The position numbers were made by a program, and so were the translations under genes. Positions 44,845-53,234 of a DNA stretch of 55,564 nucleotides are shown one piece after another (the stretch's first letter is position 1; each line of letters starts with the position of its first letter). Under the pieces are notes generated by a model. The model saw only the letters and a program-made list of their open reading frames with translations. It was not told where the DNA came from and searched no databases. Source of the stretch: Megasphaera sp. NM10 (GTDB lineage: Bacteria; Bacillota; Negativicutes; Veillonellales; Megasphaeraceae); the NCBI RefSeq assembly GCF_000417505.1, contig NZ_APHY01000025.1:3-55566 (forward strand). Reading direction: 5' to 3'.

Positions 44845-44953
44845 TTCATTAACTCCTTTCTAATGGGTAATGCACTCACCGCCTTTAGTGTAACAAAGAT
44901 GGAAACAGTTTTGCAAGATACAGGATGCCCGTGATATAATAAACCTGTCCTGG

Positions 44954-45048
44954 GGGAGGATGGGTTCTGGTGTTCCCTCTGGTCTTCAAAACCAGCATGG
45001 GGAGTTAACAGCTTCTCAGGTGGGTTCGATTCCCACACTTTCCCGCCA
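44954..45048 (+). tRNA. selC: tRNA-Sec (anticodon TCA)
   Basis: The anticodon arm CTGGT-CTTCAAA-ACCAG contains TCA, which reads UGA. The long variable arm (GGGGAG...CTTCTC), the T-arm GTGGG-TTCGATT-CCCAC, a discriminator G and an encoded CCA are all visible. A length of about 95 nt equals that of typical bacterial selC; the 5' end could shift by one or two bases. The gene decodes selenocysteine UGA codons and agrees with the selenoprotein gene at 46479-46817. A terminator follows at 45061. Confidence 0.95.
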
Positions 45049-46310: not shown

Positions 46311-46430
46311 TGTGAATACGGATTTCTAATCTGGGTGGAGGGTAGAGCGCCCTCCGAAGAGGGATAACCGCCTACCGTTTTGGTAGCACCTATAAAAAGT
46401 ATAACAAAATTATAATATATCGTCCATAAA

Positions 46431-46476
46431 AGATAAGCTGCCTCTATAAAGATTTCCTTCATAAGGCAGCTTATCT
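46431..46476 (-). terminator. Terminator of the 4-hydroxybutyrate operon
   Basis: AGATAAGCTGCCT and AGGCAGCTTATCT form a perfect 13-bp stem 2 bp after the selenoprotein stop codon. On the minus strand TTTTATGG follows. Confidence 0.8.
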
Positions 46477-46478
46477 CT

Positions 46479-46817
46479 TTATTCAAACCCTTTTTCACGT
46501 GTTATAGCCATTCCTTGCGCCCCTTCTATTGTCAGCCATTGATGGAATAAAAATCGCTTCATATGGATAACAATAGATTGATACCCTTGTTGAATTTGTA
46601 ATTTAGGATGATACCAAACGACAATATCATCAACTAATTCAAAAGGATAGTCCATTTGTTGACCCGGTTTACCTAAACCGATTTCGGGAACATAACTGCC
46701 CCAAATCAAATCGCCTTTTCAACAACTCCCTCCAGACGGTTCAAAGGTCAAGGTAATAATGACATGACCGCCATGAGCGTGAATATATTGTTTTGCTTGT
46801 TCTGTTATGGTAAACAT
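46479..46817 (-). CDS. Selenoprotein with Cys-Sec motif (HesB-like CC/Se motif family)
   Basis: The frame from ATG 46817 (RBS GAGGA) to TAA 46479 contains one in-frame UGA at codon 33 (46719-46721), directly after Cys32: PSGGSC-Sec-KGDLIWG. Sequence on both sides reads as one 112-residue protein: ITEQAKQYIHAHGGHVIITL before, and EIGLGKPGQ, HMKRFLFHQWLTIEGAQGMA after. This matches the plan of HesB-like (seleno)proteins with a CC or CU motif; their function is unknown, probably redox or Fe-S related. A SECIS-like hairpin follows the UGA, and selC lies 1.8 kb away. It is the last gene of the operon, 10 bp after gldA. A conventional gene call would give only the part from 46709. Confidence 0.88.
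46679..46713 (-). promoter_or_regulatory. Bacterial SECIS-like hairpin
   Basis: On the minus strand, five bases after the UGA, CGATTT pairs with AAATCG. Above an internal loop, GGG pairs with CCC around the apical loop GCAGTTATGTT, which offers G and U residues for SelB binding. Position and size fit bacterial SECIS elements. Confidence 0.7.
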
Positions 46818-46827
46818 GTTGAAATCC

Positions 46828-47916
46828 TCACGATTGTCCTAATGTATCTGCTTTCATAATGGCATCATACACTTCATCTGCCGTAATGTCAGCACGCACA
46901 TTTTTTGTGAACTGAGTTGGCACGGTAGCTGCTTCCGCAACCAAACGGATTTCGTCTTCTTTTACATCCGTAATTCCTAAATCAGCTAAGCATGAAGGAA
47001 GTCCTACCGATTTTATATAGTGCAATACTGTGTCCCACTCATCTTTTGGTGCTTTTTCTAAGATAAGCTGTGATAATAATCCAAAAGCAACTTTTTCACC
47101 ATGAGAAGCTCCATGGGCCTGTGGAACATGAGCAAATCCATCATTGATAGCATGTGCTGCCGCAAGGCCTCCCGACTCAAATCCGACACCGCTGAGATAG
47201 ACGCAGGCCTCAATGACTCGTTCTAAAGCAGGGTTTACTTCCTGATTTTCAACAGCGCTAAGTGCTTCCAGTGAATCATTTAATAAAGTTTTATAACATA
47301 ATTCAGCCAAAGCCAGTGCCGTTGCCGAACAAGTCCCCCGAGCCATCGTCTTTGCACCACTTCGCTGACAGGCGCGTGCTTCAAAATAGGTAGATAAGGC
47401 ATCCCCCATACCAGAAACTAAATATTGTTTAGGCGCTTGAGCGATAATTCCAGTGTCGACTAAAACGAGATCCGGATTGTGTTTCATCATTAAAGCCTTG
47501 ATAACGACACCTTGTTCATTGTAAATAACAGCCACACTGCTACACGGTGCATCATTGGAAGCAATGGTAGGAATAATAATTGTCGGTAAATCGCCTAAAT
47601 TAGTGGCCACGGCTTTAGCCGTATCCAGTGCCTTACCTCCGCCAACGCCAATGATAGTATCACAACCATGCTGGTACGCTATATCTTGTGCATCGGCAAT
47701 AGCCTTTTTAGAACATTCACCTTGAAATTCGGCATAGAATACAGATTTATTCGCACTATGCAAAGCTTTATCCAGGCGGTCACCAATTCTTCGCTTATTA
47801 TTAGGCGATAGTAAGACCAAGAAACTATTGCCCATTTTCTTAACATATTTCCCTAATTTATCTAACTCCCCATTGCCTTGCACATAGTATCCCGGTGCTT
47901 TAATTCCAATCGTCAT
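46828..47916 (-). CDS. gldA: Glycerol dehydrogenase-like iron/zinc alcohol dehydrogenase
   Basis: 362 residues of the GldA branch of the Fe-ADH family: NAD loop GVGGGKALDTAK, PTIASNDAPCSSV, and metal ligands around HAINDGFAHVPQAHGASHGEKV. GldA oxidises glycerol or 1,2-diols, or reduces hydroxyketones. In this operon it could instead serve a hydroxyacid or aldehyde linked to 4-hydroxybutyrate metabolism; the family does not decide this. It lies between the unknown 204-residue protein (separated by a terminator-like hairpin) and the selenoprotein gene. Confidence 0.85.
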   Translation of the reverse strand: MTIGIKAPGYYVQGNGELDKLGKYVKKMGNSFLVLLSPNNKRRIGDRLDKALHSANKSVFYAEFQGECSKKAIADAQDIAYQHGCDTIIGVGGGKALDTAKAVATNLGDLPTIIIPTIASNDAPCSSVAVIYNEQGVVIKALMMKHNPDLVLVDTGIIAQAPKQYLVSGMGDALSTYFEARACQRSGAKTMARGTCSATALALAELCYKTLLNDSLEALSAVENQEVNPALERVIEACVYLSGVGFESGGLAAAHAINDGFAHVPQAHGASHGEKVAFGLLSQLILEKAPKDEWDTVLHYIKSVGLPSCLADLGITDVKEDEIRLVAEAATVPTQFTKNVRADITADEVYDAIMKADTLGQS

Positions 47917-48003: not shown

Positions 48004-48618
48004 TTATGAAGAGAAATCAGGCATTTCCTGAAGACGACAAACCAATATGTAGACATCTTCTCCAACCCGATAAACGAGTAAATCACGATTTTCATCCGTA
48101 CACGGGATATTAGATTCTTTTCCACCATTCAGATTATCATGACAAATACTGTTGAGGTCTTCAAAAATTTCCATGACACCTTCTTCGCCTTTGCGGACAA
48201 TCCGTAAAAGATCATTAAAATAAATTTTATCTTGGTCATCATATTTAAAAATAGTACACCAACGACTCAGAAGTTCTTCTTCATTCATGCCCGTTTTCTG
48301 AGAAATTAATTTTTTCTGAGAAGCTAATAGAAGCAACATGCATGATAAGTAAGATTTTACGACCAGTGGGATATGGTCTTTAACCTTGGCAAAATATCGA
48401 CGATGTGACCAATAGCCATCAAAAGTTAAATCATTCTTTTCTAAAAACTCTTTGATGCCATCATTAGCTGATACCCCACAGATCATGAAAAAGCGCTTCA
48501 TAGCTTCATTTGTCGACTTACTCTTCGCATTCATCAGGCACTTTTTCACGAAGAATTCACAGATTTCTGTCGTGTTCGATTTTGTCAGTTTGCGCAATAA
48601 ATCACCATAATACTGCAT
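48004..48618 (-). CDS. Unknown cytoplasmic protein
   Basis: 204 residues, mostly helical by pattern and without signal peptide or clear transmembrane helix; one hydrophobic stretch (SYLSCMLLLLASQKK) lies in the middle. Notable are a Cys near the start of several helices and an acidic C-terminal region ending LVYRVGEDVYILVCRLQEM. I do not recognise a family. The RBS GGAGG and its position between the permease and gldA, all on one strand, indicate that it is a genuine member of the 4-hydroxybutyrate operon. Confidence 0.7.
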   Translation of the reverse strand: MQYYGDLLRKLTKSNTTEICEFFVKKCLMNAKSKSTNEAMKRFFMICGVSANDGIKEFLEKNDLTFDGYWSHRRYFAKVKDHIPLVVKSYLSCMLLLLASQKKLISQKTGMNEEELLSRWCTIFKYDDQDKIYFNDLLRIVRKGEEGVMEIFEDLNSICHDNLNGGKESNIPCTDENRDLLVYRVGEDVYILVCRLQEMPDFSS

Positions 48619-48651: not shown

Positions 48652-50099
48652 TTATTTTTCTGCGCCTTCCTTTTCAGCATTCAGTTCTTTCAAAGCTGCA
48701 ATATTGAAAAGCGGGTCAGACTTCGTATTGTACAGAGACATTTTACGTTTAAAGAAGTTTTTGCCAAATACGAGCAGGCAAAGGACAATGCCAACACCCA
48801 AAGCCATTGCAGCGCCGCGGGATACGAGGACACCGCCAATGACGCCGGCAACACCGAGGTCATTGAAAGTCTTAGAGCGAAGTACGCCGACACGGACAGC
48901 AACATAACCTTGAATCAACATGGTCAATGCCAAAGCAATCGGCAGGACAGGCTTAACAAAACTTACGATAGGCGATAACCAGTACCCAGTAAAGGTCCCC
49001 AAACGGAAGGAAGCAACGCCGCCAATTAAGCTATCCATGGCATCACGACCGTGTTTGTAACGTTCACAAATAACGACCTGCATAGCTGCCCATAAAGGAC
49101 CGCACATCGAAAGGTCAGGACCTAACAAGGACATAACCATATTACGGACACCAACGATAACGTTATTTCTGTTGGCATCGAAATGGATATTTTCATCACC
49201 ATGACGGAATTCACGAGCTTCATCAATCAGGCATCGGCCTGGATCAATTCACCAAAGAGTACAACATAAGTAGCAATAACTAACGGAGCTGCTTGGATAT
49301 AGTAAGTCATACCCGGGAAGCCAATGCGTTCAGCGAAAGGACTCCACTGGGTAAAGACTTCAATGAAATGAGGATGAGTAAAGCCCATTTCAATAGTTGG
49401 CCAAGGTAATTCGCCCACCAACGGAGCAATAATGACAGCCAGAACCATAGCAGGCAGCAATCCCAAGTCAGAAATAATCTGGAAAACTTTATTTTTATTC
49501 ATGATGCTCTTGAAATGATTACTAAAAGAGCAATAGAAAGCAAAGCCTACGGCAATAGCGATAGTAAATGGATATTTATCGAAGTTACCACCCGTATTGA
49601 ATACCAGGCGTACAGCTGCGATACCGGCCCCGATAAGGATCCCTGATTTCAAAGCATCGGGAACTAAGTCGACGACGCGTTTAGCAAGGCCTGTAGCCCC
49701 TAACAAGAAAGTAAGCAACCCGAGTTCAAATTCAAATGCAATAAGTGCATGCATACGTTCAGCCGTATCATTGGGGAACTCGCCCAGCCACAGCAATAAC
49801 AGCGGAATAGCCGGAGTAATCCAGCCAGGGACAACGGGGTCACCCAAGTGAGCATGCCAAGTATATAAGAACCCGTTCATAATGACAATGGTAATAGCAA
49901 TTTCAAAAGGCATCCCTAAATATTCTTGCAATACCGGGATGATGCCGAGACAAACGGCACATAAAAGCAGCCCTTGAACATAATCAGGCCATTCAAAGCG
50001 ATAATGGATGAAAGGTAAACGCAGGACTAAGTTAAATACGTGTAAATTAATTCCCGGTTGTATTTCGCCTTCTTTTCGTTTATAAACAGGACCAAACAT
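48652..50099 (-). pseudogene. Polytopic permease, frameshifted (possibly DUF3360 / SLC23-like)
   Basis: Reading frames from 50099 and down to 48652 together encode about 482 residues with 12 or more hydrophobic helices. The first frame ends at a TGA at 49227 after GELIQADA. The next frame continues LIDEAREFRHGDENIHFDAN and then NMVMSLLGPDLS. A missing C at 49229-49231 (GCCTG for GCCCTG) explains the break. Segments such as DALKSGILIGAGIAAVRLVFN recall the uracil/xanthine or SulP transporter fold; I would place it near DUF3360 proteins, without certainty. By context it may import 4-hydroxybutyrate or a related acid. The start follows GAGGGG. Confidence 0.7.
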
Positions 50100-50147: not shown

Positions 50148-50245
50148 GATAAAAATAGCGCCATGGCCAAGTTATTCGATATGTAATTATCTACGAATAG
50201 AACAGCCGCCATGGCGCATGCGTATTAAAAACCGCTATTTTTATC
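50148..50245 (-). other. Nested hairpin between cat2 and the permease gene
   Basis: GATAAAAATAGCG (50148-50160) and CGCTATTTTTATC (50233-50245) are exact reverse complements. Inside, GCGCCATGGC (50158-50167) pairs with GCCATGGCGC (50208-50217). The arms overlap by three bases, so the two helices partly compete. The cat2 stop codon lies in the structure. It may control read-through or mRNA stability. Confidence 0.55.
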
Positions 50246-51545
50246 CTTCATACTTACAATGGAAGCGTTTTTCAAATTCTGCAATCAATCCATCTCTAAA
50301 ATCAGGATGGGCAATCTTAATGAGGGCAATAGCACGCTGCCGCAAAGTACGTCCTTTAAGGGGAGCGATACCAAATTCTGTAATGACATAGTCTACATCA
50401 TTGCGGGATGTCGTAACAGCAGCGCCTTCGTCTAAAAGCGGTACAATCTTGGAAATCTTGCCATGGCCTGCAGTCGAAGGCATAGCAATAATAGCTTTAC
50501 CGCCCTTTGCACGGGAAGCCCCTCGAACGAAATCGACCTGGCCGCCAACGCCGCTGAACTGTTTATAGCCAATCATTTCAGCATTGACCTGCCCCATCAA
50601 ATCGACCTGCATAGCCGAGTTGATAGAGATGATATTGTCAATTTTAGCTACAACAAAGGGATCATTGGTGTAATCGACACGTTCCATTAAGACATCAGGA
50701 TTGTTATTTACAAAATCATAGAGTTTCTTTGTCCCCATGAGGAAGCAAGAAACAAATTTTCCCTGGTCAATCGTCTTTTTCTTATTCGTAATAACGCCCT
50801 TACGCGCTAAGTCGATAACCCCATCAGAGAACATTTCGGAATGAATCCCTAAATCTTTTTTATCTCCGAGGAAGGATAAGACAGCATCCGGAATAGCACC
50901 GATGCCCAGTTGCAGCGTATCACCATCATGGATCAACGAAGCTACATATTCCCCGATTTTATGTTCTGTTTCCCCAATTTTAGGAGGCTGCAATTCAATA
51001 AGGGGTTCATCCTTTTCTACGATATAATCAATGTCTTTCAAGTTAATACCATTGCCATAGGTATAGGGCATATTCTTATTGATCTGTGCAATGACCAGTT
51101 TAGCTGCTTCCGCCGCTGGCTGTGTATAGTCAACAGAAACCCCATAAGAGCAGACACCATTTTCATCAGGTTCACTGAGCTGTAAAAAAGCAACGTCAAC
51201 AGGTAATGTACCATCCGTAAAGAGCTTGGGTATTTCATGGAAGAAGCACGGCGTATAATCCCCGCGGCCTTCTTCTACCGCTTTACGAGTCGACCCGCCT
51301 ACGAACAATGCATTATGACGAAAATGTTTTTCCATCCCTGGCTGACAATAAGGTGCTTTACCCATGGCAACCATGTGAACAATTTCAACATTTTCCAGGC
51401 GATCTGCCTGGCGAACTAATTCTTCTGTTAAAGCTTGAGCTTCACCGCAAGCATGGGTGAAAACGATACGATTGCCGGATTGGACATGGCTTACAGCTTC
51501 TTCGACAGAGACAATTTTGTTCGCATATTCTTTTTTCCAATCCAT
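50241..51545 (-). CDS. cat2: 4-hydroxybutyrate CoA-transferase
   Basis: 434 residues of the class I acetyl-CoA hydrolase/transferase family, very similar in plan to C. kluyveri Cat2 and C. aminobutyricum AbfT: RVFTHA-type N-terminus, EIVHMVAMGKAPY, FRHNALFVGG, GIGAIPDAVL, the catalytic glutamate in HSEMFSDG, and GVGGQVDFVRGA. It moves CoA from acetyl- or butyryl-CoA to 4-hydroxybutyrate. The start at 51545 (MDWKKEY) is chosen on AGGTG spacing. It is second in the operon, after abfD. Confidence 0.93.
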   Translation of the reverse strand: MDWKKEYANKIVSVEEAVSHVQSGNRIVFTHACGEAQALTEELVRQADRLENVEIVHMVAMGKAPYCQPGMEKHFRHNALFVGGSTRKAVEEGRGDYTPCFFHEIPKLFTDGTLPVDVAFLQLSEPDENGVCSYGVSVDYTQPAAEAAKLVIAQINKNMPYTYGNGINLKDIDYIVEKDEPLIELQPPKIGETEHKIGEYVASLIHDGDTLQLGIGAIPDAVLSFLGDKKDLGIHSEMFSDGVIDLARKGVITNKKKTIDQGKFVSCFLMGTKKLYDFVNNNPDVLMERVDYTNDPFVVAKIDNIISINSAMQVDLMGQVNAEMIGYKQFSGVGGQVDFVRGASRAKGGKAIIAMPSTAGHGKISKIVPLLDEGAAVTTSRNDVDYVITEFGIAPLKGRTLRQRAIALIKIAHPDFRDGLIAEFEKRFHCKYEG

Positions 51546-51570
51546 CACACACACCTACTTTCCTATAACT

Positions 51571-51703: not shown

Positions 51704-53155
51704 TTATTCTTCAATGTGTGCAATGGCTTTAGCCAAGGCTTTCTTCATGCGCAAGTTGCCCTGACGAGAAATCATGATACGCTGTGCCTGCGGCGAACCT
51801 GCGCCATGCATGGATTCTGTACGATAGCCGACAGCGGCCGTGCCAAGGCTGAGGTTTTCGATGAGGCGTAAAATCTTGAGGCGGTTTTCCGTCGATACAT
51901 TATTGACACCACGGAGATACTTATCGATATACGGCCCAATCTTCGGATCACGAAGGTCTTTTTCAGACGGTGCCGTAACCATCAAGCCACCAGCAATATC
52001 TTCAGCCAGACGGACGATTTCATAGGGGAAACGCGTAACATTCTGTTTGCAGACGTTAGCCAGGAGCAAGTCGATAAGATAGTTGCCCGATTCTGTTTTC
52101 GTGCCCAAGGCCGAGCAAGCAATACCGCAAGCATACAGTGTTTCATTGAGGTGCTGCATTTCAATGATCTTATCTTTAATATGAGATGCTTTCGGGCAGC
52201 CATTATAATCAGCGGCAACAGCTGCGGCACCGATAAGGACGTCACCTACGCCAACTTTGCAGCCGCCGTAGGACTGACGATGGTAACCAGCAAAGCGTTC
52301 AACGAGGACACCGGCAAATTCATATTCACCGTTAAGATAGATATTTTCGTTCGGAATGAAGACATTATCAAAGATGACCAGGGCTTCGGTACCACCGAAT
52401 TCAGGGTTGCCCGTATCCATCGGAGTGCCTTCCATTTTACGGGTATCGCAGGACTGACGGCCAACAATCATGAAAATGCCTTCAGCATCTGTCGAGCAGG
52501 AGAAGCAAACGGCATAATCTTTATCATCTTCGCCCATGGAAATGGTCGGCATAACAATGACTTCATGAGAATTGATGAAACCAGTCTGATGAGCTTTTGC
52601 CCCACGGACTACGATGCCGTCCGGACGACGTTCTACAACATGGAGATAGAGGTCCGGGTCTGCCTGTGCATGCGGTGCCAAGCCACGGTCGCCTTTCGGG
52701 TCCGTCATAGCTCCATCAACAGTAAGGTCTTCCGTCTGTACGCGTTTAAGGAATTTCATGAAGTTTTCATGATATTTCGTACCATATTTTTTATCCGTAT
52801 CGTACGTCGTAGAGAATACCGCATTGAAAGCATCCATGCCGACGCAGCGCTGGAAGCAGGAAGCCGTTTTCTGACCACAAAGGCGCTGCATCTTCACTTT
52901 ATTCATCAAGTCCGTCGTGCTCTGATGGATATGAGTAAAGCGGTTAACACGTTCGCCGGTGTACGGGGAAATCGCCGTCATCAGTTCCTGGTATTCCGGT
53001 TTCTGAGCCAGATCATAGGTCATCCGAACGGAGTTCATAGACGGACGGAGAATCGGGTCATCTGCCGGACACGGAATCTTTTTACCGAACATGTAGACCT
53101 GTAAATTTTTCTTTCTCATGCTTTCGATGTACTGTTCGCCTGTCATTAATGCCAT
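51704..53155 (-). CDS. abfD: 4-hydroxybutyryl-CoA dehydratase / vinylacetyl-CoA isomerase
   Basis: 483 residues. FAD and [4Fe-4S] enzyme that dehydrates 4-hydroxybutyryl-CoA to crotonyl-CoA by a ketyl-radical mechanism. The cluster ligands are visible: Cys100 and Cys104 in KTASCFQRCVGMD, and His292 and Cys299 in AGYHRQSYGGCKVG. The start at 53155 (MALMTGE) follows AAAGGA. It is first in the operon abfD-cat2-permease-unknown-gldA-selenoprotein, behind the sigma-54 promoter at 53235-53251. Together with cat2 and 4hbD it links succinate semialdehyde or 4-hydroxybutyrate to butyrate formation. Confidence 0.95.
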   Translation of the reverse strand: MALMTGEQYIESMRKKNLQVYMFGKKIPCPADDPILRPSMNSVRMTYDLAQKPEYQELMTAISPYTGERVNRFTHIHQSTTDLMNKVKMQRLCGQKTASCFQRCVGMDAFNAVFSTTYDTDKKYGTKYHENFMKFLKRVQTEDLTVDGAMTDPKGDRGLAPHAQADPDLYLHVVERRPDGIVVRGAKAHQTGFINSHEVIVMPTISMGEDDKDYAVCFSCSTDAEGIFMIVGRQSCDTRKMEGTPMDTGNPEFGGTEALVIFDNVFIPNENIYLNGEYEFAGVLVERFAGYHRQSYGGCKVGVGDVLIGAAAVAADYNGCPKASHIKDKIIEMQHLNETLYACGIACSALGTKTESGNYLIDLLLANVCKQNVTRFPYEIVRLAEDIAGGLMVTAPSEKDLRDPKIGPYIDKYLRGVNNVSTENRLKILRLIENLSLGTAAVGYRTESMHGAGSPQAQRIMISRQGNLRMKKALAKAIAHIEE

Positions 53156-53234
53156 AATAATCATCCTTTCTTCTTATCATATAATAAAGTATTGACAGTA
53201 GGTTCACACGTTAGTGTGTTTTGCCTATAGTAAG

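Follow-up and report, generated by a model that had tools for sequence, protein, structure and literature searches.

The closest described relatives of the gene treated here are the proteins of NCBIfam family NF041239, 'CC/Se motif family (seleno)protein' (Moor_selen_rel), whose motif holds Cys or Sec. A 2026 review, the sole source that our literature search for NF041239 found, gives the family in its Table 1 the motif CxxU and describes it as a selenoprotein predicted in Moorella (PMC13188914). In the available excerpts of that review CxxU is the only motif given for the family, with no mention of a Cys-Sec or vicinal arrangement, and no function is stated beyond predicted hypothetical protein (PMC13188914).

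We analysed a stretch of 55,564 nt from the gut bacterium Megasphaera sp. NM10 (contig NZ_APHY01000025.1), here called the window, which carries a further member of this known, uncharacterised family; its link to a 4-hydroxybutyryl-CoA operon is a first clue to function. Judged from sequence, the gene very probably encodes a genuine NF041239-family selenoprotein in which UGA33 is read as selenocysteine and whose predicted fold is of the A type. An earlier note on this DNA had called the selenoprotein overlooked, which is overstated, the family being already in NCBIfam and in the 2026 review (PMC13188914). Features are collected in Table 1; sampled genomes are cited by number, G000 being the genome of the window itself.

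Table 1. The CC/Se gene, its signals and its neighbours in the window (positions count from the first letter of the window)
Feature	Position	Strand	Basis or remark
CC/Se-family selenoprotein CDS, 112 aa, ATG to TAA via UGA	46479..46817	minus	ORF reading, family match, dN/dS
TGA codon 33, read as selenocysteine	46719..46721	minus	In-frame; TGA in G006, TGC in G013
GAGGA, ribosome-binding-site-like	46825..46829	minus	Overlaps stop of upstream dehydrogenase gene
Candidate bacterial SECIS stem-loop	46675..46717	minus	Folding; without statistical support
Strong hairpin, 3′ arm ending in a U-run, probable terminator	46428..46479	minus	Folding
Iron-containing alcohol dehydrogenase (glycerol dehydrogenase subfamily model), upstream neighbour	46828..47916	minus	Profile matches
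204-aa operon protein (DUF), no family match	48004..48618	minus	Distant homologue (28-29%) in G182
Permease, Xan_ur_permease match below Pfam cut-off, frameshifted	48652..50099	minus	Profile and comparison with relatives
CoA-transferase	50241..51554	minus	Best model butyryl-CoA:acetate CoA-transferase, below cut-off (360/674.8 bits)
4-Hydroxybutyryl-CoA dehydratase (AbfD type)	51704..53164	minus	1u8v match, E 3e-233
tRNA-Sec (selC), anticodon TCA	44952..45048	plus	tRNA/Rfam search

The frame lies on the minus strand, from an ATG at 46817 to a TAA at 46481-46479, and is interrupted by a single in-frame TGA directly 3′ of the TGT codon of Cys32 (46722-46724); its read-through translation was used as the candidate protein. 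The earlier note had described this UGA after a Cys codon but named no strand. The plus strand of 46479-46817 has several stops. Where the note had claimed a ribosome-binding site for the upstream ATG there is a GAGGA resembling one, 7 nt before the ATG, with GAGG kept in G006 and G013, and 10 bases separate the dehydrogenase stop from that ATG. An ORF that skips the UGA can start at a TTG at 46709 and is open downstream; annotation without Sec decoding would drop the first third of the protein.

Scored against NF041239, the read-through protein reaches 41 bits, just above the cut-off of 40, and it has C32 and U33 in the motif. No other NCBIfam model matched it at E up to 1. A genome scan that scored only the 46523-46816 portion gave 37.4 bits, below the cut-off. 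Pfam did not help in naming the protein: the sole match, Cu-oxidase_3 (E 0.018), is below its cut-off and was taken as chance.

The search for relatives covered whole genomes, 17 of the same taxonomic family, 61 of the order and 398 of the phylum. Eight of the 17 hold a homologue, and the profile search of the 61 returned the identical eight; a scan of a contig database found a single relative. The G006 protein is 91% identical and has TGA at the same codon, and a distant member in G004 (29% identity) has TGA after Cys. Five Cys-type relatives have Cys at the UGA33 position: G013 (Megasphaera massiliensis, codon TGC), G011, G002, and G015 and G016, which belong to another genus and are 51-52% identical to the candidate. 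The homologues thus align through this codon, which in them is either UGA or a Cys codon, and they neither end nor begin here. Protein-like sequence on both sides of the UGA, another claim of the earlier note, is seen in dN/dS ratios that indicate purifying selection: in comparison with G006, the nearest relative, 0.15 for the part ahead of the UGA and 0.04 for the part behind it, and in comparison with G013 0.16 and 0.13. A stop with an unrelated frame behind it would not produce such a pattern.

Selenocysteine machinery is present in the host. SelA, SelB and SelD profiles all match above curated cut-offs, with selA split over two contig ends and the selD gene itself carrying one in-frame TGA. 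Two usual marks of a bacterial selenoprotein are therefore in place, a UGA that is conserved or replaced by Cys in homologues and a host with selA, selB, selC and selD. Of the three findings that the earlier note named as refuting (no homologue across the UGA, no selAB, homologues that stop or start at this point) none was made, and its core claim of a selenoprotein of CC/Se (HesB-like) kind with Sec after Cys is supported.

The tRNA-Sec gene is 1.4 kb from the near end of the candidate gene and 1.8 kb from its start, so that the distance of about 1.8 kb given before is right for the gene start. We rejected this nearness as meaningful: among relatives only G006 has it, the two genes being ~10 kb apart in G013 and on different contigs in G011 and G004, and it therefore looks incidental. 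A tRNA-Sec match of at least 68 bits was found in 12 of the 17 genomes of the taxonomic family, and the Sec form of the protein in 3/17. The 68-bit line is our choice, and 15/17 exceed Rfam's score of 47; matches of 48.6 bits or less were taken for other tRNAs because such matches co-occur with a clear tRNA-Sec. By this line selC accompanies all three Sec forms and two of the five Cys forms (G013 and G011), while G002, G015 and G016 seem to be without it, in a comparison of eight genomes, too few for statistics.

A SECIS stem-loop in the candidate gene is plausible. Its apical stem-loop is at 46702-46687, with a 4-nt loop beginning with G, and the stem begins ~5 bases after the UGA; all three Sec genes of the taxonomic family (G000, G006 and G004) have a stem-loop with a short loop at equal distance from the UGA. 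Against shuffles the post-UGA region folds no better than chance (z -0.75, 41/200 as good). Synonymous recodings were as good or better over the wide region in 49% (G000), 11% (G006) and 46% (G004) of cases and over the apical part in 47%, 14% and 5%, the last being the nearest to an exception. Of the five Cys-type genes, those of G013, G016 and G015 also have a hairpin of similar energy at this position; the probable reason is that part of the hairpin is coding sequence for the protein motif GSYVP. Matched as it is by shuffles, recodings and Cys-type genes, the hairpin was rejected as independent support; of the SECIS-size hairpin that the earlier note placed five bases after the UGA, the stem is there and the support beyond chance is not. 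The terminator claimed right after the stop fared better on folding, 58 nt around the stop giving -30.3 kcal/mol (z -7.4, 0/200 shuffles as good). The 3′ arm itself finishes with the U-run (CUUUU), with no separate tail, and a simple terminator scan listed none at the candidate's stop.

The family is common, with a match in 90 of the 398 sampled genomes of the phylum and several in some. We took a motif census of 120 proteins, the eight of the taxonomic family and 112 of 141 rows of the phylum scan, counted by hand; the remaining, mostly weaker rows were left out (two are G000 and G013 themselves) and the duplicate locus L004 was dropped. A Sec codon (TGA) is in the motif of 90/120. These 90 comprise 28 proteins with no Cys within three residues before or two after the Sec, 25 with CxxU, 25 with UC, six with CU, three with UxC and three with CxU; the C-U order of the candidate is thus rare (6/90) and U-C commoner. 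Among the 30 proteins without Sec, 21 have CC, three CxC, two Cys otherwise spaced and four neither residue in the motif region; one of the 30 has TAA in frame.

Some loci of the scan deserve mention in their own right. Two CC/Se paralogues, one Cys-Cys and one Cys-Sec, stand back to back at L134 (G104:C17:28400-30100). Paralogues without motif Cys and Sec (GTAGGP) were found at L130 (G295) and L141 (G072), both genomes also having a Sec copy. At L116 (G439:C13:31100-32600) the gene has TAA in frame and a second copy on the contig has TAG; it is perhaps decayed.

Aligned with MAFFT and hhalign, the family's usual Sec falls on Cys32 of the candidate, and Sec33 is the next residue. Selenium in the candidate is therefore likely one residue beyond the family's usual Sec position, the alignment having a gap around the motif. 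The protein of G182, a genome of another class of the same phylum, has the same long form with the motif U-x-C, and from the C-U of the window protein versus this U-x-C, selenium seems to have changed partner within the Cys/Sec pair. C32 and U33 are the sole Cys/Sec residues of the window protein, so any thiol/selenol chemistry must occur there. A 17-row tree, with eight of 14 inner branches open, leaves gain versus loss of Sec undecided.

The AlphaFold2 model of the candidate has a mean pLDDT of 83.4, with a mean of 57 in the motif loop (residues 31-40). The six best Foldseek matches are IscA/SufA chains, with probability up to 1.00 and E of 0.010-0.21; none reached E 0.001 or better. VIA-align placed the model on IscA 1r94 with Z 7.9 and 2.9 A over 84 residues, a score that alone is weak, since Z below 8 can reflect a common arrangement. 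The ten rows shown by VIA-align are four IscA/SufA, two 'putative Fe-S biosynthesis', DsrR, AQ_1857, hi1723 and one integrative model; the list has no family of clear function outside the A-type kind, which proves nothing. By hhalign the main CC/Se family aligns with A-type proteins at 96.2% (E 2e-9), its Sec opposite the first Cys conserved in IscA/HesB proteins, and the candidate's subfamily alone weakly so (33.6%). Of the 38 relatives in the alignment, 16 match PF01521 (E up to 1, the best being 8.8e-5), and other family members of this set match SufA/IscA/HesB models. With Z 7.9 and these matches in members, an A-type (HesB/IscA/SufA-like) fold shared by the CC/Se family is well supported as a prediction.

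The candidate itself has no PF01521 match. Its genome has none at E up to 0.001, and the CC/Se protein may be the sole protein of A-type fold there. A-type carriers have three conserved cysteines, the first Cys and those of a C-terminal CGC. We saw these three in four of 13 rows of the comparison alignment; the candidate, having only C32 and U33, is without the C-terminal CGCG. A true Fe-S carrier function of the candidate is doubtful because the C-terminal cysteines are absent. Weak matches of bacilliredoxin type in 7/38 members (PF06491, best E 0.002; TIGR04191, best E 0.0013) may be chance, and sequence searches of PDB with family profiles gave nothing firm.

The place claimed for the gene at the end of a 4-hydroxybutyryl-CoA operon was confirmed by the match of the dehydratase to 1u8v, a gamma-aminobutyrate metabolism dehydratase/isomerase, and by gene order. 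The order dehydratase, CoA-transferase, permease, DUF, dehydrogenase, CC/Se recurs in five Megasphaera genomes (that of the window, G006, G013, G011 and G002); six of the sampled genomes of this genus carry the CC/Se protein, the sixth being G004. A NifU-type gene adjoins the module in the window. The permease is frameshifted in this assembly and intact in the relatives compared, which may reflect faulty assembly or a recent loss. Elsewhere the window has two T-box leaders (Rfam RF00230; 5807-6056 and 19923-20164, minus strand).

Within the taxonomic family the CC/Se gene is outside the operon in G004, G015 and G016. The permease is found in 7/17 genomes, six of which also have a CC/Se protein (in G016 on a different contig from the permease); G010 has the dehydratase, CoA-transferase, permease and DUF without a CC/Se protein. 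There was no CC/Se match in G005, G009 and G001, which have dehydratase and dehydrogenase, and a second dehydratase/dehydrogenase pair in G011 has no CC/Se gene. With close relatives that have the dehydratase and lack the CC/Se gene, the protein can be at most an aid and not a core part.

Outside the taxonomic family, G182 has the permease, dehydratase, NifU-like gene, CoA-transferase, a distant DUF homologue and then a Sec-type CC/Se gene (7754-8083 of L178, G182:C1:874000-890000) whose product is 42% identical to the window protein. In G205 the CC/Se gene precedes a 710-residue frame and the complete module, all on one strand. The G097 copy is downstream of the permease at a distance of 3 kb, with a dehydrogenase and a 584-residue frame in between; the 13 kb examined there showed no dehydratase, and the CC/Se protein of G097 is on the main family branch. 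These three, G000 and G013 are the five that have CC/Se within 10 kb of the permease among the 12 genomes with the highest permease scores in the phylum sample (570 bits or more). In the other seven (G387, G120, G247, G222, G094, G201 and G310) the 9-16 kb around the permease had no CC/Se gene, G094 showing a 27-residue partial match only, and four of these genomes carry a family member at another site. Overall 15 of 23 permease genomes have the family versus 90/398 (hypergeometric 7.5e-6, uncorrected for ancestry, genome size and selenium use). The apparent link to 4-hydroxybutyryl-CoA operons is recurring, though not universal. Judged by titles, a literature search found no report tying a CC/Se or HesB selenoprotein to a 4-hydroxybutyrate operon, the sole match for the dehydratase together with selenoproteins being a paper on oral transcriptomes, and among the matches listed for Megasphaera selenoproteins none was on the candidate.

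On the reading that we prefer, UGA33 would be translated as selenocysteine by the host's own SelA, SelB, SelD and tRNA-Sec, and the adjacent Cys32 and Sec33 would make up one redox or soft-metal site. A redox site, cycling between selenol/thiol and selenenylsulfide, has nearly an even chance of being right; a site for Fe-S or metal handling, at which the pair would briefly hold iron or another soft ligand, is rather less probable, and some other use of the pair is distinctly unlikely. The protein may be an accessory that keeps the operon's dehydratase pathway working, a role that we put forward tentatively, at somewhat short of even chances. 4-Hydroxybutyryl-CoA dehydratase is an oxygen-sensitive [4Fe-4S]/flavin enzyme, which makes repair or protection reasonable. 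A more speculative extension, to which we give about the same weight as to metal handling, is that the long CC/Se clade (C-U in Megasphaera, U-x-C in G182, C-x-U in G205) serves 4-hydroxybutyryl-CoA fermentation as a dedicated accessory, and that in this clade selenium has moved between the dithiol partners while the site was kept; if so, selenium can be carried by either residue of the pair.

It is scarcely credible that UGA33 is a true stop, or an error of sequencing, and the locus a pseudogene or two short genes. The TTG-started ORF, the lack of statistical support for the SECIS and the permease frameshift in the same assembly would all suit such an account, but G006, a separate genome, and the distant G004 member have the UGA too, dN/dS is low on its two sides (0.15 and 0.04), Cys-type relatives run straight through, and TGA is in the motif of three quarters of the census (90/120). 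Cross-species conservation already goes most of the way to refuting it.

The two other rivals accept a selenoprotein and differ in what it does. A true A-type carrier with IscA/ErpA/SufA function, Sec taking part in cluster binding, is unlikely: fold and profile similarity, the NifU-type gene beside the module, a genome without a PF01521 match and an iron-sulfur dehydratase all point towards it, and against these stand the missing C-terminal CGCG, which leaves only C32 and U33, and the candidate's own lack of a PF01521 match. Slightly better placed, though still improbable, is a redox, selenium- or metal-handling protein that is unrelated to 4-hydroxybutyrate and came by chance to lie in the operon in Megasphaera. 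Copies are placed differently in G004, G015 and G016, many family members are elsewhere, several per genome in some, and seven of the 12 best permease genomes have the 4-hydroxybutyrate operon with no CC/Se gene nearby; yet the association with this module is seen again in G182 and G205 and, in a looser form, in G097, and the family is enriched in permease genomes (with the reservation on ancestry given above).

Compared with known systems, the candidate resembles A-type IscA/SufA/ErpA proteins (PF01521) in its predicted fold and in where its motif lies, namely in the loop that holds the first conserved Cys, and differs in its C-terminus and its sequence profile, as set out above. It is like the HesB-like selenoproteins (TIGR01911, NF038090) in having Sec in the corresponding loop, and some CC/Se members match their models weakly: at E up to 0.1 NF038090 matches five of 38 aligned members and TIGR01911 three, the candidate matching neither. 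These are nevertheless a different family, the motif given for them in the available excerpts of the review being UxGP (PMC13188914), versus CUKGD in the candidate. With NF041239 the candidate shares a whole-length profile match, Cys/Sec in a GG-C/U motif and the character of a small HesB-like protein. It differs in barely passing the cut-off, in its greater length, with extra residues (KGDLIW...) inserted behind the motif, and in having C-U versus the U-C, U-A or CxxU of the family, with Sec one residue further on; this shift of Sec between Cys/Sec partners is a natural experiment on selenium use in a redox or metal site. Operons for 4-hydroxybutyryl-CoA dehydratase, CoA-transferase and permease have the same neighbour genes as the window, the CC/Se gene being an extra gene near only some of them, and this operon link gives a common family a testable role.
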